Positions 1 through 23,216 of a stretch of 37,077 nt of DNA are shown piece after piece. The position numbers and the translations under genes are program-made. The notes under the pieces are model-generated. The model saw only the letters and a program-made list of their open reading frames with translations, was not told where the DNA came from and ran no database searches. Source of the stretch: a virus; IMG/VR virus record IMGVR_UViG_3300047560_000216, positions 1 to 37,077 of that record; one strand, written 5' to 3'. Numbering within the stretch: the first letter of the stretch is position 1; each line of letters opens with the position of its first letter.

Positions 1-1139
1 ACCTGATCGCGTCCTACAACAAGTCGGACGTCGAGATGAAATTCGTCAACGGCTCGACCATCAAAGGCATCACGGCCGAGAAGCCCGAGCGCTTCCGTGG
101 TCCCCAGTTCCATGGTGGATGGCTCGACGAGCTGGCAGCGTGGCAATATGCCGACGAGGCCTTCGACCTGCTCATGTTTGGCATGCGCCTCGGCGCCCGG
201 CCTCGGCTGATCTGCTCGACCACGCCCAAGCCTAACACCATCATCCGCAACCTGCTGAAGCGCGAAGGCAAGGACGTCGTCGTCACCCGCGCCTCGACCT
301 ACGACAACCTCGCCAACCTCGCGCCAACCTTCCGCGATCAGATCCTGCGCTACGAAGGCACGACGATCGGCCGGCAGGAAATTCACGCCGAGATCATCAA
401 CCCCGAGGAAATGGGCGTGGTGCGCCGCTCGTGGATCAAGCAATGGAAGGGCGAGCTGCCTGAGCTTGAGTTCGTGGTCATGTCGCTCGACACAGCTTTT
501 ACCGAAGAGACCGGCAACACCACCAAGGGCGACCCCGACTATTCGGCCTGCGTCGTCTGGGGCGTGTTCAGCCCGCGCGCCGATCGACGCGACGTCATCC
601 TGCTCGACTGCTGGCAAGAGCGGCTGGGCTTTCCCGATCTCATCCGCCGGGTGAAGCAGGAAATGAAGGCGGTGTACGCGCCGCGTCAGAAGGCGCTGAT
701 CAAGCCCGTGATCGGGCCCAGCTACATGGAAGACAGCGGCCGCAAGCCTGACGTGCTGCTGATCGAAGACAAGGGCTCTGGCATTAGCCTGCGCCAGATG
801 CTCGGCCGTGAGGGCATCATCGCCGCCCCATACAATCCCGGCCGCGCAGGCAAGCTCGACCGCCTGCACGCGATCTCGCCGCTATTCGCAGCCGGGCGCG
901 TGTGGATCACCGAGAGCAGCAAGGTGCCCGGTGAGTTCGTGAGCTGGGCGCACCCGCTCATTGAGCAGATGTGCACCTTCTCGGGCAGCGGCTCGATCCC
1001 GCATGACGACATGATGGATGCCGGCGTGCAGGGGCTTCGCTACATCGCAGATCGTGATATGATCCGCGTCACGCGCCCAGAGGCCCCAGAGCCACGGGCC
1101 AGAGACGACCGGCCAAAGGTGAACCCATATGCCGCCTGA
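1..1139 (+). CDS. terL: Terminase large subunit, 3' part (5' end outside window)
   Basis: This is the ATPase/nuclease motor that packages phage DNA through the portal. The reading frame is open from base 3, so the ATG at 36 is internal and the gene begins upstream of the window. A Walker B-like stretch (GGWLDELAAW, about base 114) carries the acidic pair, and LICSTTPKP fits the ATPase coupling motif. The C-terminal RNase H-like nuclease is marked by acidic motifs MSLDTAF, LLIEDKGSG and PHDDMMDAG. The Walker A motif is missing because the N-terminal part lies outside the window. The stop overlaps the start of the next gene by 11 bases. The identification is firm. Confidence 0.95.
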   Translation, partial: LIASYNKSDVEMKFVNGSTIKGITAEKPERFRGPQFHGGWLDELAAWQYADEAFDLLMFGMRLGARPRLICSTTPKPNTIIRNLLKREGKDVVVTRASTYDNLANLAPTFRDQILRYEGTTIGRQEIHAEIINPEEMGVVRRSWIKQWKGELPELEFVVMSLDTAFTEETGNTTKGDPDYSACVVWGVFSPRADRRDVILLDCWQERLGFPDLIRRVKQEMKAVYAPRQKALIKPVIGPSYMEDSGRKPDVLLIEDKGSGISLRQMLGREGIIAAPYNPGRAGKLDRLHAISPLFAAGRVWITESSKVPGEFVSWAHPLIEQMCTFSGSGSIPHDDMMDAGVQGLRYIADRDMIRVTRPEAPEPRARDDRPKVNPYAA

Positions 1140-4100
1140 TGATTTCAAGCTCGAGCCAGTTCCTTCGGCCTTCGACCCATACGCGCAGCCGCAAGAGAGC
1201 GCAGCTCAGCGCATGAATCGCGTCAGCCGCGAGATCCGCACAGGTGATGCTTACGAGCGCATAGGTGGTCTTCGCCATATGGCTGGTGCCAATCCAGTTG
1301 CAGGCAGCGGCTATAGCGGCATGGTCGGCGCGCAGCACGGCCCGCTATCCGGCAATCTGCTTGTGTCGTCTGGCGATCGCGTCGCTGGCGATGTGCAGAT
1401 GGTCGGTGGCAACGTCGGCGTCGGCCCGCTGTCGGCGCATTACATGAAACCAACCTTTAAGGGCGCGCCTGCAGCCTATGGCGTTGGCGTTGGCGGCAAG
1501 CCTTTCGACGCAGACACATACTTCGGTGCTAAAGCAACGCATACGCCGAAAGGCATGCAGTATGGCGTGAACGCCGCGCGCTTCGGCGAAGACGGCGGCG
1601 GCTATGTCGGCGTCAGCTATAATCCGTCGCAGCGCTCGCCCGGCGCGTTCTTTGGTTATGACAAGCGCTTCGCTGATGGTGGCCCGGTTACTGCTCGGCG
1701 CATCGGCGCCAACATCGTACCGCCTGAAGAGCAGGGCGCTGTCAGTCCGTCATGGGAAGGCGTCGGTGACGCTGCACGCGGCATTGCTGCAGGCACAGGC
1801 CCGGCGCTTGAGACGGCTGGCAAGTATATCGCAGAGACGCCTGTCTCGCAGATGGCCAGTGATGTCGGCAAGCTCGGCAGCCATATGTACGAAGCAGCCA
1901 AAGAAAACCCCGCTGAGTTCATCGGTGGCATGTTGCCCGGCGTTGGCAATCTCTACGCAGCCAAAGACGTCGCAGAGCTGAAGGACAAGATTGCAGAAGC
2001 TCGAGCTGCAGGCCGTGACGACATCGCGCAGCAGCTTGAGAAGATCCTGCCTGTTGCGGCCACTGGCGCTGTAATGCCATTTGGCGCAGGCGCTGCAACG
2101 CGCTCCGTGATCAAGGGTGCTGAAAAGGCAGCCGTTCATGAAGCAAGCAATCTTGCGACAAAGGCTGCTGAAGTGTTTGGAAAAACACGCGACATCCGCG
2201 AAGCTGGCTATGTTATGCCGGATGGTTCAATGCTTGATTTCACAGGTCGCCATCAAGTGCAAAATGATTACGCACGCGTTGGTGAGTTTAATCGACCTGT
2301 TGAAGGTCAGCGCGATTGGATGGCGGGCGAGCGCAACGTCGATCATCGAGAAGTATCAGACATCATTGATGCGCCAGAAGGTATATCTGGCACAGATGCA
2401 ATGACGCGCTTCATGAATGAGACCAATGCTATTCGCAACAAACCCGGCATTGGTTTTGAATCATTTGATGTTCCAACTGATCAGCAGTTGAAAGCTCTTA
2501 TTGGCGGTCACAACAAGGCCTATCGTGGCGAGCCAATGCTTGTAGAGTTGGCTGATCGAAACACAGGCGACATCATTGCTTCGACCGACTTTGAAAAGCC
2601 TACAGTTGAAGGCGTGAAGAAATGGTTTGAAGAGAATGCGCCTAAAGAATCTGTCGTTGAGAAAGCTGCAGAGCGTGAATTAACCAACATGGGCTTGTAT
2701 AGCCATGGCGCTGAAACAGCGCTTGCATTGCCACAGGCTAAGGGAACGCCTGAGCAAATGGCTGCGATGCTCGCAAAGCAGGGCGTGAAGCCTGCTGAAT
2801 TGGAAGGTTTTACTGAAGCATTCGCTGGCCGTCCATCTGTGACCCGTGAAGAAGCTGCACAGTATTTCCGTGAGCGTATGCCGCAAGTTGAGGAAAAGGT
2901 TCTTTCAACCAATCCAAAACTTTCTGATGAACAAGTTGAGCGTGAATACCGCCGTGTCTATGGTGAACCATTCACCTCAGATGGCGAGCGTCTAAACATT
3001 GATGAAATGCGCAGTATGGTGACGAGTGAATGGGCTGGAATTGATAGCCAATATGTTCCAAAGTTTCAGCAATACACTCTCCCCGGTGGTGAGAACTACC
3101 GTGAGGTGTTGTTGAAACTTCCTAAAGGTGCGGGAGCTACCAAAGAAGCATTGGAAGAGTTAGCAGCAGCTAAACAGCGATCTAAAGAAGCCACCAAAGC
3201 ATATAATGATATTCTTGCTGCGGAGCTTGAAGGAACATCAAACATTCCTCAAGAGCAAGTTAATGCTTTGAGAAGAGAAGCTGATATTGCTCATGCAAGA
3301 GTTAAGAACTTTGAGCATTTAGCTAACAAGCCTATGTTTGAATCTGCCCATTGGCGGGACGATCCGAATGTCCTCGCACATCTTCGCATGTCTGACCGCA
3401 CTGGTCCTAACGGTGAAAAGATTCTTCACATTGAAGAAATCCAATCTGATTGGGGCCAACAAGGTAAAAAGGCTGGGTTCAAAACTGAGATACCAAAACA
3501 GTTGCAAGCATCGGTGGATGAAATCTTAAAAAATAAAATTCAACCAAATGCAGAATTGCTTCCTGTTGCTATGCAGGAAAAAGATGGCTCTGTTGCATTG
3601 AGGAATGTTCCTCCTGACTTTATTAAACATTGGGAGAAAAGTAATATACTTACTCCTGATGAAGCTAAAACCTTATTGGAATGGAATGATAAGTACTTCA
3701 AAAGTATGGAAGGAATTCCATCGGCCCCCTACGTCGCAAACACGGCTGCATGGACAGACCTTGCATTGAAGCGCGCTTTGAAAGAAGCGGCTGAAGGCGG
3801 TTATGATCGTGTTGTTTGGACGCCCGGTGTAGAGCAAGCCAAGCGATATGATTTGAGCAAGCAGATTGATAGTCTTCAGTATGTCCCTAAAACTGGGAAA
3901 TTATATGCTTACAAGGATGGACAACTTGTTGTTGATAAAGCAACAAAGCCAAATGAACTGGAAGGTTTAGTTGGAAAAGAAGTTGCGAAAAAACTTCTTG
4001 ATACTGAACTTAAAACATATGGGTCTGGCAATCCTGTTCATTACCTTGAAGGCCAAGACCTCTCTGTTGGCGGCGAAGGCATGAAGGGTTACTACGACAA

Positions 4101-5217
4101 GATTGTACCAACCCAGTTGCAAAAGTTGCTGAAGAAACTGGACCCTGAAGCGAAGATTGAGAAAACCCAACTTCCTATCAACAAGGAAGGTTGGCACATC
4201 ACCGATCCATCAGCGACAGTTTCGGGTAAGTGGATGGTCAAAAGCTCAGACTACAATTCTAAGGGTCTGATGTTTGACACTGAAGCCGAAGCTCGCGCTG
4301 CGATGGCGAAGAAGATTGCAGAGAACTCAATTGATGTTCCTGTAATTCAAATCACCTCGGCCATGCGTGAGAACATCCTCAAGGGTATGCCTCATATGGC
4401 AGAGGGCGGCATGGTTGAGGAAGCCGAGCCAACGCTGAACGCAGAAGAAGTAAACTTTGCAGAAGGTGGCGCAGTCAACGGCGCTGGGATGAGCCCAGAA
4501 GACCGCGTAGGCGAAACCGCTGCCGACGTTGCCAACTTGATCCAAGAAGGTGAGATGGACCAGCGCAAGCTGGCCTACCTTATCCGCATGGCATCGACGG
4601 GCACGATTGCGCCTGACAAGGCCTACGAGTTCGCAGAAGAGATCCTCGCGCAAAACGTGCCAGCGCTCATGCAGCGCTTTGCACGTTATCCGCGTGCAAT
4701 CCGCATCCTCGCTCGAGTTGATCTTGCGCTCGGTGGTCTTGGCGGACAGGCGCTCGGCCTCGTGGGCAATCAAAAGATCCGCAATGAGCCTGTTGGTGCA
4801 GACGGCTATGCCAAGGGCGGTGCCGTTAAGAAGAAAAAAAGCGCCAAGCGCATGCCCTATCAGGGCGATGAGCAGGCGTTCCAAGCTTTTGCTGACTTCG
4901 CCATTGAAGAGTATGGCCCGCAGCTCGGTGGCAACATGGCCAAGCGAGCCGAAGGCAATGCCGCAAAGCTCCTGTTTGCCCTGCAACAACAGGAAAAGAA
5001 CTCGGCGGAGAGCCCTGAGCAATATCGCGAGAAGATCACGATGCTCAATCAGATGGGCCGTCAGTTCAACATCAATCCCAAGGCCGCCTTCAATCGAACG
5101 ACAGATGCGATGGATACCAAGCGCGAGCTTGCCAGCATCTTGAAGAGCGATCATAAGATTAACCCAGCCTTTCAGGCTGCGTTGCAACGCATGGACCGAC
5201 TTGTGGGGAGTCGCTGA
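1129..5217 (+). CDS. Large multidomain polyvalent-type protein (1362 aa), probably delivered with the DNA
   Basis: The ATG at 1129 follows AAGGTG. Residues 1-330 are Gly/Ala-rich with hydrophobic stretches (about 250-330). Residues 359-505 contain GYVMPDGSMLDFTG and VDHRE, a domain seen in other phage mega-proteins. Residues 521-600 begin MGLYSHGAETAL. Residues 645-1088 form the widespread phage domain with PGGENYREVLL, HWRDDPNVLAHLRMSDR, LHIEEIQSDW, GGYDRVVWTPG, RYDLSKQ and MKGYYDKIVP. From memory, this is a domain of large polyvalent proteins of phages and conjugative elements, whose proposed role is injection into the host. The C-terminus (1090-1362) carries three AxGGxV motifs, and a fourth lies at residue 181. 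DNA from about 2150 to 4350 is clearly more AT-rich than either end. The biochemical activity is unknown. Confidence 0.8.
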   Translation: MPPDDFKLEPVPSAFDPYAQPQESAAQRMNRVSREIRTGDAYERIGGLRHMAGANPVAGSGYSGMVGAQHGPLSGNLLVSSGDRVAGDVQMVGGNVGVGPLSAHYMKPTFKGAPAAYGVGVGGKPFDADTYFGAKATHTPKGMQYGVNAARFGEDGGGYVGVSYNPSQRSPGAFFGYDKRFADGGPVTARRIGANIVPPEEQGAVSPSWEGVGDAARGIAAGTGPALETAGKYIAETPVSQMASDVGKLGSHMYEAAKENPAEFIGGMLPGVGNLYAAKDVAELKDKIAEARAAGRDDIAQQLEKILPVAATGAVMPFGAGAATRSVIKGAEKAAVHEASNLATKAAEVFGKTRDIREAGYVMPDGSMLDFTGRHQVQNDYARVGEFNRPVEGQRDWMAGERNVDHREVSDIIDAPEGISGTDAMTRFMNETNAIRNKPGIGFESFDVPTDQQLKALIGGHNKAYRGEPMLVELADRNTGDIIASTDFEKPTVEGVKKWFEENAPKESVVEKAAERELTNMGLYSHGAETALALPQAKGTPEQMAAMLAKQGVKPAELEGFTEAFAGRPSVTREEAAQYFRERMPQVEEKVLSTNPKLSDEQVEREYRRVYGEPFTSDGERLNIDEMRSMVTSEWAGIDSQYVPKFQQYTLPGGENYREVLLKLPKGAGATKEALEELAAAKQRSKEATKAYNDILAAELEGTSNIPQEQVNALRREADIAHARVKNFEHLANKPMFESAHWRDDPNVLAHLRMSDRTGPNGEKILHIEEIQSDWGQQGKKAGFKTEIPKQLQASVDEILKNKIQPNAELLPVAMQEKDGSVALRNVPPDFIKHWEKSNILTPDEAKTLLEWNDKYFKSMEGIPSAPYVANTAAWTDLALKRALKEAAEGGYDRVVWTPGVEQAKRYDLSKQIDSLQYVPKTGKLYAYKDGQLVVDKATKPNELEGLVGKEVAKKLLDTELKTYGSGNPVHYLEGQDLSVGGEGMKGYYDKIVPTQLQKLLKKLDPEAKIEKTQLPINKEGWHITDPSATVSGKWMVKSSDYNSKGLMFDTEAEARAAMAKKIAENSIDVPVIQITSAMRENILKGMPHMAEGGMVEEAEPTLNAEEVNFAEGGAVNGAGMSPEDRVGETAADVANLIQEGEMDQRKLAYLIRMASTGTIAPDKAYEFAEEILAQNVPALMQRFARYPRAIRILARVDLALGGLGGQALGLVGNQKIRNEPVGADGYAKGGAVKKKKSAKRMPYQGDEQAFQAFADFAIEEYGPQLGGNMAKRAEGNAAKLLFALQQQEKNSAESPEQYREKITMLNQMGRQFNINPKAAFNRTTDAMDTKRELASILKSDHKINPAFQAALQRMDRLVGSR

Positions 5218-5846
5218 TGTATGATGAAGCAATCAAAACGCTTGTTGAAAAGCTCAAGAGCGATGCCGCTCTGCTCGAGGCGTCAAAAGGCCTAACTGAG
5301 GCTGACAAGATCCGTTGCTTTGATGATGCCATTCCAGAAGATCTGCTCGCCGAGGCCATCGCCGAGGTCGAGCGCCGGGGCTGGCAGTATGGCTGGCGTA
5401 GCAACAAGATGCTGGGTTTCGGCCACTGGAACATCGTGTTGTCGGACAGCAAGATTGAGCGCGAAGAAGTCTATCACGAAGTGCCGCAGTGCATCCGTGA
5501 TCTGTGGGACTATATCCAGCCGCGCTTTATGCCAACAACGCCTGTGCTGGTGCGCGCCTATGCAAACGCTCACACCTATGGCGTTGAAGGCTACATCCAT
5601 CGAGACAGCAAGTTTGAGACGGATGAGACTTGCGTGATCTATTACGAGAAGGATTGGAAGCCGGAATATGCTGGCGAGACAATCTTCTTGAACGAAGACG
5701 AAGACAACATCCTCAAGGCTGTGCTGCCGAAATACGGCCGCATGACGATCTTCCCCGGCAACATCAAGCATGCCGGCCGTGGCGTAAGCCGGATCTGCCC
5801 AGTGGCGCGCCGGGTGCTCGTGATGAAGGGGCGCCCCCGTGAGTAA
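5217..5846 (+). CDS. 2-oxoglutarate/Fe(II)-dependent oxygenase (prolyl 4-hydroxylase-like)
   Basis: This is a double-stranded beta-helix dioxygenase of 209 aa, expected to couple 2-oxoglutarate decarboxylation to hydroxylation of an unknown substrate. The iron ligands are visible as H128-x-D130 (YIHRDS) and the distal H185 (IKHAGRG). R198 or R199 in VARRVLV is the likely 2-oxoglutarate-binding residue. The N-terminal part (RRGWQYGWRSNKMLGFGHWN) fits this phage/bacterial subfamily. The start overlaps the preceding stop by one base (TGATG), and the next gene overlaps its end, so the three genes are translationally linked. Phage relatives are of uncertain function; protein or nucleobase hydroxylation are both possible. 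The collagen-like fibre at 20349 is one conceivable substrate, but no direct evidence links them. Confidence 0.88.
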   Translation: MYDEAIKTLVEKLKSDAALLEASKGLTEADKIRCFDDAIPEDLLAEAIAEVERRGWQYGWRSNKMLGFGHWNIVLSDSKIEREEVYHEVPQCIRDLWDYIQPRFMPTTPVLVRAYANAHTYGVEGYIHRDSKFETDETCVIYYEKDWKPEYAGETIFLNEDEDNILKAVLPKYGRMTIFPGNIKHAGRGVSRICPVARRVLVMKGRPRE

Positions 5847-6333
5847 GCGGCACCTTCTGCTTGTTGCGCTGAAGCGCCTTGGCGCTTTCCGCACGCAGCA
5901 CAACCGCCGCATGGGCCTGACGTTAGGCGAACACCTAACTAATACTTACGATGACCTGAAGAGGATGGGCGCAGATGAAGATGTGGCTCTGGCTGGTGGC
6001 CTTCATTCGATCTATGGGACGAACGCCTTCAGGAGCGCCAGCCTCGGCCCCGACAAGCGCCCCGTCATCCGCCAGCTCTTCGGCGAGCGCGCCGAGCGCC
6101 TCGCGTGGCTCTTCTCGCAAATCAACCGCCCCCGCTGCTTTGAAGGCGAAGCCATTAAAAACTGGCAAACGGGTGAGCCGGTCGAAGTCTCGGAAGAAGA
6201 CCTCCAAGACCTGATGTTGATTGAGGTGGCCAATCTGAGCGATAATGGCGCAAAGCTTTCGGGCTACCCTAACCTTGAGCGGTTCTATCATGAACGACAG
6301 AGAACTCTACGAGCTGGCAGCGAGGCTGCTTAA
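5839..6333 (+). CDS. HD-like domain protein resembling DUF6817
   Basis: This 164 aa protein starts with GTG at 5839, after AAGGGG about ten bases upstream, and overlaps the oxygenase stop by eight bases. The segment from TLGEHLTNTYDDLKRMGADEDVALAGGLHSIYGTNAF (positions 28-63) matches the pattern of the DUF6817 group in the HD superfamily: H32, then H56. At the usual His-Asp pair the sequence is His-Ser (H56-S57), as I recall for this family in general, so classical HD phosphohydrolase activity should not be assumed. An acidic C-terminal helix region (EEDLQDLMLIEVANLSDN) follows. Gene order suggests co-function with the oxygenase. The substrate is unknown. Confidence 0.75.
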   Translation: MSKRHLLLVALKRLGAFRTQHNRRMGLTLGEHLTNTYDDLKRMGADEDVALAGGLHSIYGTNAFRSASLGPDKRPVIRQLFGERAERLAWLFSQINRPRCFEGEAIKNWQTGEPVEVSEEDLQDLMLIEVANLSDNGAKLSGYPNLERFYHERQRTLRAGSEAA

Positions 6334-8689
6334 GCATTACGTCGCCGAAGATGAAACGGTGGCCAAGATCGTGGAGACCGCTAAGGTCGATCGCGGCGAG
6401 CCCAAGCTCGTGCCTGTGATCACGGCAGAAGAACGCGCCCTCCTGAACCTTCTGGGCGGCCCCATGGCGGAAGCTATGGAGGCTAAGCATATCTCGCTGG
6501 CGTCGCAGGGTTGCGGTTGTGGCTGCGGTTGCGGGTGCGGTGATGGCGGCGACGACGACGGAGAGGCAGATTCTGCCGCTGCAGATTCCGACGCTGATGC
6601 CGAAGAAGATTCTGAAGCTGATCCTGATGCGCCTGATCCAAACGCTCAGCAAGTAAGCCAAAATTTTAGTAGCTGGGCTGCAATGACTGCAGCGCTTGGT
6701 ATTGGTCAAGGACAGGGTCAAGGACAGGGTCAAGGCCAAGGACAGGGCGAAGATAATAACAGCAACCCTGATAATATGAACGACCCCAACTTTGATTGGG
6801 CTGCCTATCTTGGTATTCCGTCTGTAACTGTATCTGGTCCGGCTAATGCAGGGCAGGGCGAAGAAGGAGAGGGACAAGGCGTTGGGCCGGGCCAAGGACC
6901 GGGTCAGGCGACCGGCACTGAAGGTGATCAAGGCGTCACAAGCGCAAATGCATCAGGCCCAACCAGCGGCCCCGGCGCGCCCGGTGGTGCGGCTGATACA
7001 GGTGGCGCAGGTACAGGCACTGGCAGCTTTGCTGATGCTGTGTCAAACTTCTTTAGTCAGTTCAACCCGATGGGGTCGGCGCAGGCCTCGACCAGCAACT
7101 GGGCAGCACCGAAAGATAGCAGCTATGCCGCGCTGATTGATTCCGCACGCGATGCTGCGTCTAAGGGTCAGTTCAACAACTGGATGGCATCACCGCTCGG
7201 TGCGCAATTCAATGCAAACCCGGCTGTCACAAATCAGTTTTTTGGCGAACTTGTTAATACCAACGACAAAGCTATTGCTGCCGCACAGGCTAATGCCGCG
7301 CAGGCGGCTGGCTCGCTGTCTGGCATGAACGCAAGCCAAGCGGCAAACATTGCAGCGCAAAACCAAGCTGCGGCTCAACAAAATGCCGCTGCTCAAACCG
7401 TGGCCAACCTGACCACGCAGACCTATGGCCTGCCTGCCACAGTCTCAGCGCCGTTGGCATCACAGATTGCATCATCCTATGGGTTCGGTGCGCCGTCCGC
7501 ATCTCAGACCGGCCAAAACACACAGACAGCGGCAGCTCCTACCAGCGCACCAAGCCCATACGGAGCCCTCACAGCAGCCGTCACCAGCGCGCCGTCTACT
7601 TCACCTGCGCCAGCGCCCGCCCCAGCTCCTGCTCCCGCGCCAGCCCCTGCTGCACCCGCAGCACTGGCGCAGTATGGGCAGGCTGCTCCTCTTGGTGAGC
7701 CTATCAGTGTGCCAACGCTCACTGTTGCAGAGACACCGCAAGGGCAGCCCGGCCCGACCGCGACATCCTCGACCAGCACCACCAACAACCAATCGGTGGC
7801 GCAGGCGGTGCAGAACTATATTGCTGACAAGGTCAATGCAGCCATCAGCAATCCGGCTGCTACAGCCACCAATATCGCCACAAGCTTCGTGCCGGGGCTC
7901 GGTATTGCAAATACCATTTCAGGCCTTGTGGGTGGCCCAACGGTGGGCGGTCTGGCGTTTGGCAACAATACCAGCAACCAAACAAATGAAGACCTATTCG
8001 ATCCGACAGGTGCCAAAGACGCTGCAATGGTCGCGGCAGCCTTTGGTGACATCAATACAAACTATGGCTCAAATATTGATAGCGGCGGCGGTGGCACATT
8101 GCCGCCTGTGCGCGTGCAGGATCTTGCCATGGGGCTGCCGATCGCGCCGACTTCTGCATATGACTATGTTGCCCCCGGTACGGTCATTGAAGGAACGCCA
8201 ACAGGCACGCGCACTGGTGCTGAGACGACAGACACAGGCCGCATTTATCTCGGCGCTCCAGTTAATCCGTATACCTATGGCGCATCAGGAGAAACCGTCT
8301 TTTACAAGCCAGTCGCAACAGCCGCTCAAGGCGGTTACTTCGACGCTGATGCATACTTTGCTGATGGCGGTCTCGTGAGCACGCCCAAGCCGCCAATGCA
8401 GCCCGTAGTCGCGTCCTATCCAACCATGGCCTACACCGATGGTCAGGGATTGATTGGCTCCGTTGCTGCGCCTCCTGCGCTGACGCCTTATGAGAGCGTT
8501 GGGTCAGATGCGCCGCATGCTTCGCCAATGGCGCCAGCACCTGCGGCCGCAGCGCCAACACTGACGCCTGATAGCCCGCTGTTGGCAATTCGTAACACCA
8601 ATGCTACGCCAGTTCAGTCTGCAATATCCCAAAACCCAAATCTGGGGTATTCTCTCGGCATGTCGCCACTCTCGCGGCTCAAGGGATAA
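6290..8689 (+). CDS. Low-complexity protein with Cys-Gly, Gly-Gln and Pro-Ala tracts, upstream of portal
   Basis: I chose the ATG at 6290 (MNDRELYEL, preceded by GAGCGG) over the ATG at 6245, which would overlap the previous gene by about 90 bases. The product is 799 aa. A helical N-terminus of about 65 residues is followed by five alternating Cys-Gly pairs (C75, 77, 79, 81, 83), an Asp/Glu-rich stretch, seven Gly-Gln dipeptides (139-152), a Gly/Ala/Ser-rich linker, and an alternating Pro-Ala tract (439-458). The C-terminal 350 residues are less repetitive and contain FADGGLV at 690. I recognise no enzyme. The position between accessory genes and the portal, and the fibrous composition, suggest a structural or internal head protein. 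The Cys-Gly run could bind metal or form disulfides. Confidence 0.72.
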   Translation: MNDRELYELAARLLKHYVAEDETVAKIVETAKVDRGEPKLVPVITAEERALLNLLGGPMAEAMEAKHISLASQGCGCGCGCGCGDGGDDDGEADSAAADSDADAEEDSEADPDAPDPNAQQVSQNFSSWAAMTAALGIGQGQGQGQGQGQGQGEDNNSNPDNMNDPNFDWAAYLGIPSVTVSGPANAGQGEEGEGQGVGPGQGPGQATGTEGDQGVTSANASGPTSGPGAPGGAADTGGAGTGTGSFADAVSNFFSQFNPMGSAQASTSNWAAPKDSSYAALIDSARDAASKGQFNNWMASPLGAQFNANPAVTNQFFGELVNTNDKAIAAAQANAAQAAGSLSGMNASQAANIAAQNQAAAQQNAAAQTVANLTTQTYGLPATVSAPLASQIASSYGFGAPSASQTGQNTQTAAAPTSAPSPYGALTAAVTSAPSTSPAPAPAPAPAPAPAPAAPAALAQYGQAAPLGEPISVPTLTVAETPQGQPGPTATSSTSTTNNQSVAQAVQNYIADKVNAAISNPAATATNIATSFVPGLGIANTISGLVGGPTVGGLAFGNNTSNQTNEDLFDPTGAKDAAMVAAAFGDINTNYGSNIDSGGGGTLPPVRVQDLAMGLPIAPTSAYDYVAPGTVIEGTPTGTRTGAETTDTGRIYLGAPVNPYTYGASGETVFYKPVATAAQGGYFDADAYFADGGLVSTPKPPMQPVVASYPTMAYTDGQGLIGSVAAPPALTPYESVGSDAPHASPMAPAPAAAAPTLTPDSPLLAIRNTNATPVQSAISQNPNLGYSLGMSPLSRLKG

Positions 8690-8692
8690 TCC

Positions 8693-11125
8693 ATGGAAGA
8701 CGACGACAAGAAGGAAGGTCTCGAAGTCGAGATGGAAGACAACGAGGCTGACGTCGAAGAGAATGACGACGGCTCAGCTATCGTAACGCTGGACGAGCCA
8801 GACGAGGCAAAGAACGCCGAGTTCTATGCCAACCTCGCCGAGGACATGGAATCTTTTGACCGCATGACGATCTCGTCGCAGTTGCTGGAGTTCATTGAGC
8901 GCGACAAGGAAGCACGCTCTCTCCGCGACAAGCAATACGAAGAAGGCCTGCGCCGCACCGGCCTTGGTGATGACGCCCCCGGCGGCGCGAATTTCCAAGG
9001 TGCATCAAAAGTCGTGCACCCCATGCTCACCGAAGCATGCGTGGACTTCTCATCTCGCGTGATCAAGGAACTGTTCCCGGCCAATGGCCCGGTGAAAGAA
9101 TACATCCCCGGCGAGGTCACGCAGGAGAAGATGGAAAAGGCGCGCCGCAAGCAGCGCTTCATGAACTGGCAGCTCACGCAGCAAATGATCGAATACCGAT
9201 CAGAGCTGGAGCAGCTCACAACGCAGATCCCGCTTGGTGGCGCGCAATATATGAAGCTCATCTGGGATGAGCAGCGCAATCGCCCCACATCTCTCTTCAT
9301 CCCGATTGACGACGTTTATCTGCCTTACAGCGCGACAAGCTTCTACAGCGCAGAGCGCAAGACCCATGTGCAATACATCACGCGCATGGAGTTTGAGAAG
9401 CGCGTCGGCACTGGCATGTATCGCGACATCAATCTCACGGCGCCGCAAGAGCCTGATCTGACTGGCCCGCAGAAGGCCAACAACAAGATCGAAGGCAAAG
9501 AGCAGAACAGCTACAACGAAGATGGTCTGCGCACGGTGTTCGAGATTTATTGCTATCTCGACTTTGAAGATAACTTCGGTCTCGCACCATACATCGTGAC
9601 GATCGACCACACGACGAAAGAAGTGCTGTCGGTTTATCGCAACTGGGATCCAGACGACGAGAACCAAGAAGAGCTTGTTCACATCGTCGAGTTTCCCTTC
9701 GTGCCGTGGCGCGGTGCGTATCCGATCGGCCTGCCGCACATGATCGGCAGCTTGTCGGCTGCAGCGACTGGTGCGTTGCGTGCGTTGCTCGACAGCGCGC
9801 ACATCAACAACTTCCCCGGCATGCTGAAGCTGAAGGGCGGCTCGCGCGGCGGTCAGTCTGATCGCATTGAGCCGACACAGGTCACGGAAATTGAAGGCGG
9901 CGTTGGTGTTGATGACATCCGCAAGATCGCAATGCCTGTGCCGTTTAATCCGCCGAACCCTGTGCTGTTCTCGTTGCTTGGTTTTGTGACGGAAGCAGCG
10001 CGCGGCGTTGTTCGCACGACATACGAAAAGCTTCAAGATCAGAACCCGAATGTTCCTGTCGGCACGACGCTCGCGATGATCGAGCAGGGCATGACAGTGT
10101 TCTCGGCCATTCATGCTCGTTTGCATAACTCAATGCAAATGACGCTGAAGGTTCTGCATCGTTTAAACTCTAAGCACATCACCGATGAATACATCGAAAA
10201 GGTGTGCGGCGAAGAAATGTGCAAGGCCAAGGATTTCCAAGGCCCAATGGATGTGATCCCCGTATCAGATCCAAACATCTTCTCTGATGTTCAGCGCGCA
10301 GCGCAGATGCAGGCTGTCGTGCAGCGTGCGCAGGCTCGTCCTGATCTTTACGATGCTCGTGCAGTTGAAGAGCGCTTCTTGGAAGGGATGAAGATCCCAG
10401 ATTACAAGCCGCTGCTTGCCAAGAAGCCCGAGCCGATCGAACTCAATGCAGTGAATGAGAACCTTGCTCTAACGCTCGGCCGTCCTGTTGCTGCGTTCCC
10501 AATGCAAGATCATCTCGCGCATTTGCAGGTGCATCTTGATTATCTGCAGAGCCCGATCTTCGGCATGAACCCGCTGATTGGCCCGGTCTACATTCCCGGC
10601 GTGCTGCAGCACATCAAGGAGCACATGGCATATTGGTATTCGCTCTACATCTACGAGCAGACCAGCGCTGCTGTCGGCGTGCCTCTTGATGCATTCCTTG
10701 GCGGCAAGGATCACGACATGTCTGCAGAGCTTGATCGCACGCTGGCAATGGCATCGCAGCGCTTCATGCCTGACATTCAAGCATCGCTGCAGGGCATCCC
10801 GCCGATCATCCAACAGGCCATGCAGGTCATGTCCCAGATGGGTCCGAAGCAGCCTGTTGATCCCGCTGAAATCTTGCAGGCCGAGACACAGCGCAAGGCA
10901 GCTTATGATCAAGGTCGCTTGCAGATTGATCAGGCTCGCCTTGAGCGTGAAGCGCAGCTTGATCAGATCAAGCAGCAGGAGAAGCAAGCAGAGATTGCTG
11001 CTAAGGTGGCAATGAACCGCGAAGACAACCTTACTGCTAAGGAGCTTGCGGTCTTTAACGCCGAGGAAGGCCGCAGTGGCCGGTATACCACCGGGCACGG
11101 CATCAACCCTAACCCCCACCCGTGA
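8693..11125 (+). CDS. Portal protein
   Basis: This 810 aa protein is the dodecameric head vertex channel through which DNA is packaged. It begins three bases after the preceding stop. The N-terminus is very acidic (residues 1-50). The core shows portal-like segments: GANFQGASKVVHPMLTEACVDF, PFVPWRGAYPIGLPHMIGSL, LLDSAHINNFPGMLKLKGG, and NPNVPVGTTLAMIEQGMTVFSAIHARLHNSM. The C-terminal 110 residues are a long Gln/Glu/Lys coiled coil. Size and pattern match the large portals of podoviruses and related marine phages. Its place between the terminase and scaffold/capsid genes is as expected. Confidence 0.92.
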   Translation: MEDDDKKEGLEVEMEDNEADVEENDDGSAIVTLDEPDEAKNAEFYANLAEDMESFDRMTISSQLLEFIERDKEARSLRDKQYEEGLRRTGLGDDAPGGANFQGASKVVHPMLTEACVDFSSRVIKELFPANGPVKEYIPGEVTQEKMEKARRKQRFMNWQLTQQMIEYRSELEQLTTQIPLGGAQYMKLIWDEQRNRPTSLFIPIDDVYLPYSATSFYSAERKTHVQYITRMEFEKRVGTGMYRDINLTAPQEPDLTGPQKANNKIEGKEQNSYNEDGLRTVFEIYCYLDFEDNFGLAPYIVTIDHTTKEVLSVYRNWDPDDENQEELVHIVEFPFVPWRGAYPIGLPHMIGSLSAAATGALRALLDSAHINNFPGMLKLKGGSRGGQSDRIEPTQVTEIEGGVGVDDIRKIAMPVPFNPPNPVLFSLLGFVTEAARGVVRTTYEKLQDQNPNVPVGTTLAMIEQGMTVFSAIHARLHNSMQMTLKVLHRLNSKHITDEYIEKVCGEEMCKAKDFQGPMDVIPVSDPNIFSDVQRAAQMQAVVQRAQARPDLYDARAVEERFLEGMKIPDYKPLLAKKPEPIELNAVNENLALTLGRPVAAFPMQDHLAHLQVHLDYLQSPIFGMNPLIGPVYIPGVLQHIKEHMAYWYSLYIYEQTSAAVGVPLDAFLGGKDHDMSAELDRTLAMASQRFMPDIQASLQGIPPIIQQAMQVMSQMGPKQPVDPAEILQAETQRKAAYDQGRLQIDQARLEREAQLDQIKQQEKQAEIAAKVAMNREDNLTAKELAVFNAEEGRSGRYTTGHGINPNPHP

Positions 11126-20348: not shown

Positions 20349-20352
<4 letters not shown>
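20050..20352 (+). CDS. Small zinc-ribbon-like protein
   Basis: This 100 aa protein overlaps both neighbours through ATGA junctions. C18-x2-C21 (ICARC) and C42-x2-D45 (VCEVD) suggest a zinc ribbon in which the last ligand is not Cys. Related phage proteins usually have four Cys, as I recall. [12 protein letters not shown] and [12 protein letters not shown] follow and are typical of this small family next to tail adaptor genes. The function is unknown; a structural role in the neck or tail is inferred. Confidence 0.68.
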
Positions 20353-22157
<1,805 letters not shown>

Positions 22158-22160
22158 GGC

Positions 22161-23216
22161 ATGAAGATCTGCGTCTATGCAATCAGCAAAAACGAAGAAC
22201 AGTTTGTTGAACGATTTTGCGCGTCTGCTAAAGGTGCTGACCTTATCCTTATCGCAGATACGGGGTCTACAGATGGGACTGCTGCCAAGGCGCGCGAGTG
22301 CGGCGCGGTGGTGCATGATATATCTATCCGCCCTTGGCGCTTCGATTTGGCACGCAATGCGGCCTTGGCGCTAATCCCCGGCGATTTTGATGTTTGCATC
22401 TCCCTAGACTTAGACGAAGTGCTAACAGAAGGCTGGCGCGAAGAGATTGAGGCAGTCTGGAAGCCAGACACAACCAATCTCTGGTATCTGTTCGACTGGG
22501 GGAATGACATAACATTCCCATATCGCAAGATTCATAGCCGTCACGGCTATCATTGGCATCACCCATGCCATGAAGACATTCGCCTTGATCCGCGCGTTCA
22601 AGAAGTGCGTGCTTGGACGAACAAAGTTCTTGTAAGGCACTTTCCAGACCCCACAAAGAGCCGTGGCCAATACATGGATCTGCTTGAAGCGGCTGTTAAG
22701 GAAGATGACCGCGACCCGTCGCATTACTTCTATTATGCCCGCGAGCTGACTTTCTACCAGCGCTGGGATGAGGGCATTGCGGCTCTGACCAAGTATCTTG
22801 GCATGAATGCCGCCAGCAATCAGAACGAGCGCTGCTATGCCATGCGGCTTATGGCCAAGTGCCATGCCGAGAAGAGCAATGCGCAGGAATGCGAAAAATG
22901 GCTACTACAGGCTGCTGGCGAGGCGCCTAATACGCGCGAGCCTTGGTATGAGCTGGCTATGTTGATGTATCGCCTCCACCGCTGGGAAGAGTGCTTTGCT
23001 TTCTCCCGCAGATGCCTCAACATTGTGGATCGGGCGCTTGTTTATACCTGCGACCCCACGGTTTGGAGCGCAGCGCCGCATGATCTTCTGGCCATCTCGG
23101 CCCATTGGCTTGGTTTTAAAGATCTTGCCATTGAAGAAGGTCGAAAGGCTGTGGAATTAGACCCTCATGATCCACGGCTCGCCGAGAACTTGAAGTGGTA
23201 CGAAGGTTCTGTTTGA
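22161..23216 (+). CDS. GT2-family glycosyltransferase with C-terminal TPR-like helices
   Basis: This 351 aa protein starts three bases after the collagen-like fibre stop. The N-terminus is a GT-A fold: KICVYAISKNEEQFVERF, ADTGSTDGT (D33) binding nucleotide-sugar, and SLDLDEVL (D83-x-D85), the metal-binding DxD-type motif. HPCHEDIRL lies in the second half of the catalytic domain. Residues from about 190 form helix pairs (HYFYYARELTFYQRWDEGIAALTKYL, then WYELAMLMYRLHRWEECFAFSRRCL) resembling tetratricopeptide repeats, as in peptide-recognising transferases. The donor sugar and acceptor are unknown. Its position suggests the fibre, whose Thr residues are exposed in the Y position, as a substrate; host surface or DNA are alternatives. 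Confidence 0.88.
   Translation: MKICVYAISKNEEQFVERFCASAKGADLILIADTGSTDGTAAKARECGAVVHDISIRPWRFDLARNAALALIPGDFDVCISLDLDEVLTEGWREEIEAVWKPDTTNLWYLFDWGNDITFPYRKIHSRHGYHWHHPCHEDIRLDPRVQEVRAWTNKVLVRHFPDPTKSRGQYMDLLEAAVKEDDRDPSHYFYYARELTFYQRWDEGIAALTKYLGMNAASNQNERCYAMRLMAKCHAEKSNAQECEKWLLQAAGEAPNTREPWYELAMLMYRLHRWEECFAFSRRCLNIVDRALVYTCDPTVWSAAPHDLLAISAHWLGFKDLAIEEGRKAVELDPHDPRLAENLKWYEGSV

Follow-up and report, generated by a model that had tools for sequence, protein, structure and literature searches.

Two described systems, PhnY/PhnZ and TmpA/TmpB, consist of a 2-oxoglutarate (2OG) hydroxylase with an HD-fold partner encoded beside it (PMC8177086). The HD-domain diiron oxygenases carry the motif H...HD...H...H...D, in which the first Asp bridges the two irons (PMC8177086), while the small alarmone hydrolases, which share the helical HD fold, bind Mn through a His-Asp box (PMC5954133). 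On the oxygenase side, the HIF prolyl hydroxylase PHD2/EGLN1 and the 2OG-FeII_Oxy_3 enzymes use an HxD...H triad, and PHD2 has no partner domain. One cyanophage carries 24 2OG oxygenases, and the functions of the viral enzymes had not been specifically investigated before (PMC9602691).

Here we describe a phage locus in which a 2OG oxygenase (OX) is paired with an HD-like protein of the family DUF6817. Like PhnY/PhnZ and TmpA/TmpB, it encodes a 2OG oxygenase next to an HD-fold protein, the likeness being one of genomic pairing only. Unlike in those systems, the oxygenase is of the prolyl-hydroxylase type, and the pair is phage-borne, often fused and free of any phosphonate context. Many aquatic and soil phages carry such an oxygenase coupled, and often fused, to an HD-fold partner that lacks the usual metal-binding pair. 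A literature search returned no paper that mentions DUF6817 and none that mentions FlmC, the family to which OX is related, together with an oxygenase, the existing FlmC papers being concerned with other proteins. Our results suggest that the phage pair is an undescribed two-part oxidative modification system.

The oxygenase gene and its phage context

The window, i.e. the whole analyzed stretch of 37,077 nt (IMG/VR record IMGVR_UViG_3300047560_000216), is a tailed-phage fragment that carries genes for terminase, portal, a collagen-like tail protein, an endolysin and virion proteins. The OX and DUF6817 genes are located between the terminase and the portal (Table 1). An earlier, sequence-only reading had described an oxygenase gene and an HD-like gene overlapping by eight bases, and the boundaries of the two ORFs bear this out. 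We regard the long ORF upstream of OX as context and probably not as a component of the module. In addition, a beta-1,4-glycosyltransferase-like protein is encoded directly 3′ of the collagen-like protein and may glycosylate the collagen-like fibre.

Table 1. Features of the window, with positions counted from its first nucleotide.
Feature	Position	Strand	Basis or remark
Terminase large subunit	36-1139		
1362-aa phage ORF upstream of OX	1129..5217	+	Weak PHROG endolysin-type match
TGATG, in which the stop of the 1362-aa ORF and the start of OX share 1 nt	5217..5217	+	
OX, 2OG-Fe(II) oxygenase, FlmC-like / PHROG 274, predicted prolyl-hydroxylase-type fold, 209 aa, ATG start	5217..5846	+	Profiles, residue conservation, fused-homologue model
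8-nt overlap GTGAGTAA of the OX stop with the DUF6817 start	5839..5846	+	4 or 8 nt kept in most relatives
DUF6817 HD-like protein, predicted RelA/SpoT-type HD fold, 164 aa, GTG start	5839..6333	+	Profile, motif, model, fold matches
799-aa low-complexity phage ORF downstream (context only)	6290..8689	+	Contains a Cys-Gly run and (GQ)n repeats; its start lies 44 nt within the DUF6817 gene
Portal	8693-11125		
602-aa collagen-like tail protein	20349-22157		Carries (GPT)n repeats; matched by several collagen profiles and by tail-fibre PHROGs
Beta-1,4-glycosyltransferase-like protein	22161-23216		PHROG 13126, E 3.6e-96

OX scores 26.6 bits against Pfam 2OG-FeII_Oxy_3, just below the cut-off of 27, and matches PHROG 274 (E 1.4e-16). 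Its match to the NCBIfam FlmC-family 2OG oxygenase NF052475 (E 1.4e-23, 83.9 bits) falls short of the family cut-off of 240 bits, and on these profile scores OX is a relative of that family, not a member. The iron ligands H128, D130 and H185 are conserved in the alignment as an HxD...H triad. Conserved Arg is also present, and R192 and R198 are candidates for anchoring 2OG. In a model of a fused homologue, the OX part matches PHD2/EGLN1 (E 4e-9); OX thus resembles PHD2 and the 2OG-FeII_Oxy_3 enzymes in its predicted fold and triad, but shares just 15-18% sequence identity with them. With a predicted double-stranded beta-helix fold and the HxD...H triad, OX has the attributes of the 2OG-Fe(II) oxygenase superfamily. 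Furthermore, its dN/dS of ~0.06-0.12 against relatives points to purifying selection, dS being near saturation in most pairs.

FlmC-like 2OG oxygenases of cyanophage records (for example L001:2750-3938, NC_031906 and NC_020837), as well as PHROG 274 itself, bear the name ‘DNA endonuclease V’. Since both profile and fold evidence indicate an oxygenase, this label looks like a propagated error.

The prolyl-hydroxylase-type fold and the presence of a collagen-like tail protein in the window both fit the idea that the module hydroxylates the phage's own (GPT)n protein, as the animal prolyl hydroxylases do with their targets. However, collagen-like matches were found in 10 of 37 pair-bearing phage records (8 of them above the cut-off), while most such records, some of at least 40 kb and some of them fragments, have none. 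We consider this idea very improbable, and on the 10 of 37 records the collagen-like protein is ruled out as a general target of OX.

Fold and putative site of the DUF6817 protein

The HD-like protein of the window belongs to Pfam DUF6817 (PF20680), with 68.9 bits against a cut-off of 25.2, and scores just 12.7 bits against HD_4. Its gene shows a dN/dS of ~0.12-0.28 against relatives, which indicates purifying selection, again with dS near saturation in most pairs. An AlphaFold2 model built from 87 sequences (mean pLDDT 97.5) has a helical HD fold and matches many HD chains with Z up to 12, a moderate value for a helical protein. Its nearest solved folds are the small alarmone hydrolases and the Rel/SpoT hydrolase domains (RelH/SAH, MESH1 and Rel/SpoT: Z ~10-12, rmsd 3.0-4.0 over ~115-142 residues), with 7qod and 7qoe giving Z 12.0 and an rmsd of 3.0-3.5 over 129-131 residues. 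Foldseek likewise matches the model to these proteins with a probability near 1, albeit with E above 0.01 and a TM-score of ~0.5. PhnZ and TmpB come next (Z 7.3-8.0); MIOX is not among the listed matches, an absence that is no evidence against it.

Searches of the PDB with the single OX and DUF6817 sequences gave no significant match. The DUF6817 profile, by comparison, finds the HD protein Lmo0812 (4yf1) at E 2.7e-4, and this match, together with the co-linear His positions, supports a true kinship with HD proteins. The assignment of the second protein to the HD superfamily in the sequence-only reading is thus upheld by the structure prediction, as is the mention of PhnZ, which appears with TmpB among the fold matches. 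A natural OX-DUF6817 fusion was also modelled (335 aa, 19 sequences, pLDDT 86, pTM 0.58), and its domain arrangement is unreliable.

At the expected His-Asp dyad, the same reading had noted His-Ser, and this proves to be a property of the alignment as a whole, H56-S57 being present in 87 of 87 DUF6817 sequences. In addition, the window protein has A131-N132 in place of AD, and this position, the last Asp of the HD motif, is Asn in every viral row and Asn or Asp in cells. With HD changed to HS and the last Asp to Asn, the viral proteins have lost two of the four residues that are the canonical metal ligands. H21, H56, S57 and Y59 are invariant in the 87 sequences, H32 is present in all but one, and T61 is near-invariant; a three-His metal site using H21 is conceivable. 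It should be noted that part of the sequence scans used a pattern containing HSIY, so that the invariance of Ser in the loci found in this way is partly by construction. Loci found with the OX query or the Pfam profile are free of this bias, and the dyad position there is Ser or Ala, never Asp; those recovered by the profile alone have HS or HA, never HD. The extra histidine pair of the PhnZ/MIOX diiron class is absent after HS in the alignment.

The HS dyad, the viral Asn and the missing His pair place DUF6817, by motif, with neither the canonical alarmone hydrolases nor the PhnZ-type diiron oxygenases. The former had the best fold matches, as would suit a phage alarmone hydrolase acting on (p)ppGpp, or on a nucleotide akin to it, to remove it and merely co-inherited with OX. 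Both His ligands of DUF6817 lie at positions matching those of RelH/SAH, MESH1 and Rel/SpoT. In contrast to these enzymes, DUF6817 has its Mn-binding Asp residues replaced (the His-Asp box reads HS), carries IYGT for the acidic motif that follows and has a constant oxygenase partner; moreover, this pairing and the 21 fusions described below do not look like accidental co-inheritance. Such a role is extremely improbable, and identity as a canonical alarmone hydrolase is rejected because the Mn2+-binding His-Asp box is lacking.

The PhnY/PhnZ pair had been raised as a weak analogy in the sequence-only reading. In a pathway of this type, OX would hydroxylate beside a C-P or C-C bond, which would then be cleaved by DUF6817 as a mixed-valent diiron oxygenase. 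The gene logic and the fold agree with it, but the chemistry that a PhnZ metal site implies does not: Ser stands for the bridging Asp, no further conserved His pair is present, and viral proteins have Asn for the last Asp. PhnZ-type identity is rejected on this ligand motif. Furthermore, the alarmone hydrolases fit the fold better, and phosphonate genes were seen in none of the neighbourhoods inspected. The pathway is very improbable as a whole, and neither phosphonates nor nucleobases, the proposed substrates, find support in any neighbourhood seen.

Pairing of OX and DUF6817 in phages and bacteria

When metagenomic viral contigs were searched with either protein and with an alignment, 78 distinct DUF6817 domains were recovered. 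Two of these are truncated at a contig end and were excluded. In all of the remaining 76, DUF6817 adjoins or is fused to a member of the OX family: 48 are in the order OX-HD, 7 in the order HD-OX, and 21 are single polypeptides fused in one frame. Among the overlaps, lengths of 4 nt (33 loci) and 8 nt (31 loci) are the most frequent. An arrangement that recurs in 76 of 76 testable domains, fusions included, is not due to chance, and the pairing is far more strongly conserved across genomes than the sequence-only reading could show. The lack of pairing elsewhere that would have counted against that reading was thus not observed. In a tree of DUF6817 domains, the reversed order appears in two separate places with the pair retained; the fused state needs four changes, with starred branches forcing only one. 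Distances among the OX sequences are correlated with those among the DUF6817 domains (Pearson 0.81, 0 of 500 permutations), and shared phage descent contributes to this correlation.

The location of the pair varies with the phage group, being near portal and terminase in window-like phages and near clamp-loader genes in T4-like phages. Its neighbours differ between the groups and are of ordinary phage kinds, such as portal, terminase, clamp-loader and tail genes, a number of these names having been read from sequence, and no third gene family recurs across phage groups among the viral loci inspected. For phages, the case that OX and DUF6817 work as a single functional unit is as strong as genomic evidence can make it.

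Isolate phages show both the pairing and its limits. The Synechococcus phages ACG-2014g and S-RIM50 encode OX-OX-DUF6817 with overlapping ends, their two oxygenases being of the same PHROG 274 family as OX. In S-SSM7, DUF6817 overlaps a cupin-fold gene whose JmjC_2 score is just below the cut-off, and the same place was found in S-SSM6a. In Prochlorococcus phage P-TIM68, no oxygenase was found adjoining DUF6817, its neighbour being an HNH endonuclease, and a cyanophage OX query had no match in the genome. Given this exception, the rule of pairing, though very strong, is not absolute. Among isolate-phage records, 114 have an OX relative, whereas 4 matched the DUF6817 query from the window and 9 matched the cyanophage versions. 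Judging by 114 against 4 records, the dependence is one-sided, OX often occurring without DUF6817; unlike the window, most cyanophages have an FlmC-like oxygenase without it.

DUF6817 is rare in bacteria, being found in ~0.5-2.5% of sampled genomes from four phyla. Bacterial loci of the HSIY type are mostly without the viral OX family, and several are near 2OG oxygenases of other families, namely: PhyH (L078 and L086, and directly upstream in L077), TauD (L079, L080, L083, L187 and L199) and JmjC_2 (L097). In the Flavobacterium genome of L079, the sole TauD gene adjoins DUF6817. PhyH or TauD is nearby in 6 of 22 bacterial DUF6817 loci, against 0.23-0.38 expected by chance, given the PhyH and TauD gene counts measured for the genomes (Poisson 2e-7 to 3e-6); with two related cyanobacterial loci merged, five such loci give 4e-6 to 5e-5. 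Other bacterial loci have NRPS, glycosyltransferase or thiolase neighbours with no oxygenase in the stretch read, as in the Chloroflexota thiolase clusters and the cyanobacterial glycosyltransferase loci.

Two further bacterial arrangements were observed. In two Actinomycetota MAGs (L077:1428-2977 and L086:5968-7461), DUF6817 adjoins or is fused to a protein weakly resembling the M14 zinc carboxypeptidases, with PhyH near. L188-L192 form a divergent DUF6817 branch with HA for HS, and a glycosyltransferase-like protein is beside or fused to DUF6817 in four of these five cyanobacterial-sample loci, L191 being fragmentary.

A possible two-part oxidative modification module

We propose a two-part oxidative modification module made up of OX and DUF6817, in which the second step acts on the OX product, and we give this reading a probability of about 0.5. 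Judging from its fold and invariant residues, OX would act as a prolyl-hydroxylase-type enzyme, using 2OG, Fe(II) and O2 to hydroxylate a phage or host target. DUF6817 would then bind and convert the hydroxylated product by a step distinct from canonical HD phosphohydrolase or diiron-oxygenase chemistry. The candidate site comprises the invariant His, Ser and Tyr residues and the near-invariant Thr and Asn, where the Asp residues that are canonical metal ligands have been lost. The activity of OX, a later action of DUF6817 on the same substrate and a catalytic, not purely binding, role of DUF6817 are inferred.

What the analysis shows is the predicted folds, the conserved pairing with its fusions and reversals of gene order, the purifying selection and the replaced residues. 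The pairing in all 76 testable viral domains, 21 of them fused, its persistence where the order is reversed, the correlated distances, the triad, conserved Arg and PHD2 match of OX, the bacterial neighbours from other 2OG-oxygenase families and the one-sided dependence count in favour of the module. Against it, P-TIM68 has DUF6817 without an oxygenase neighbour, as do several bacterial loci in the stretch read, and a non-catalytic binding domain would account just as well for the absence of both Asp ligands. Such a domain is the main rival: a degenerate HD domain that binds a substrate, nucleotide or other signal and recruits it to the oxygenase, or regulates the enzyme. In its favour, the viral proteins have S57 and N132 in place of the two acidic metal ligands of the HD site, 21 domains are fused to the oxygenase as recruiting domains typically are, and HA is tolerated for HS across the broader Pfam family. 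However, the invariance of H21, H56, S57 and Y59, and of H32 but for one sequence, goes beyond the need of a plain adaptor, even if the HSIY pattern biases part of it. In addition, partners from several oxygenase families are less easily explained by one docking role, and for this reason a shared product is favoured over a single docking surface. We regard a purely binding DUF6817 as a serious possibility, though not as the probable one.

Taken further, the proposed module would make DUF6817 the founder of a chemically new class of HD-fold enzymes that lack the HD dyad and act on the products of several 2OG-oxygenase families. Phages would spread it in paired or fused form, and during infection the two activities would modify some component of the host or of the virion. 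This extension is tentative, and the neighbourhoods of DUF6817 hold no consistent hint of a substrate. Unexplained 2OG oxygenase genes are frequent in aquatic phages, and a constant partner, in some cases within one polypeptide, gives a handle on one subset of them. If DUF6817 is an enzyme, the HD superfamily would gain a chemistry that dispenses with the HD dyad, which would also help to explain an uncharacterised Pfam family that occurs beside bacterial 2OG oxygenases and in NRPS-containing loci.

Finally, two loci (L144:2094-4501 and L162:815-3026) have three OX-family genes in an array followed by one DUF6817 gene, an arrangement that suggests successive oxidations.
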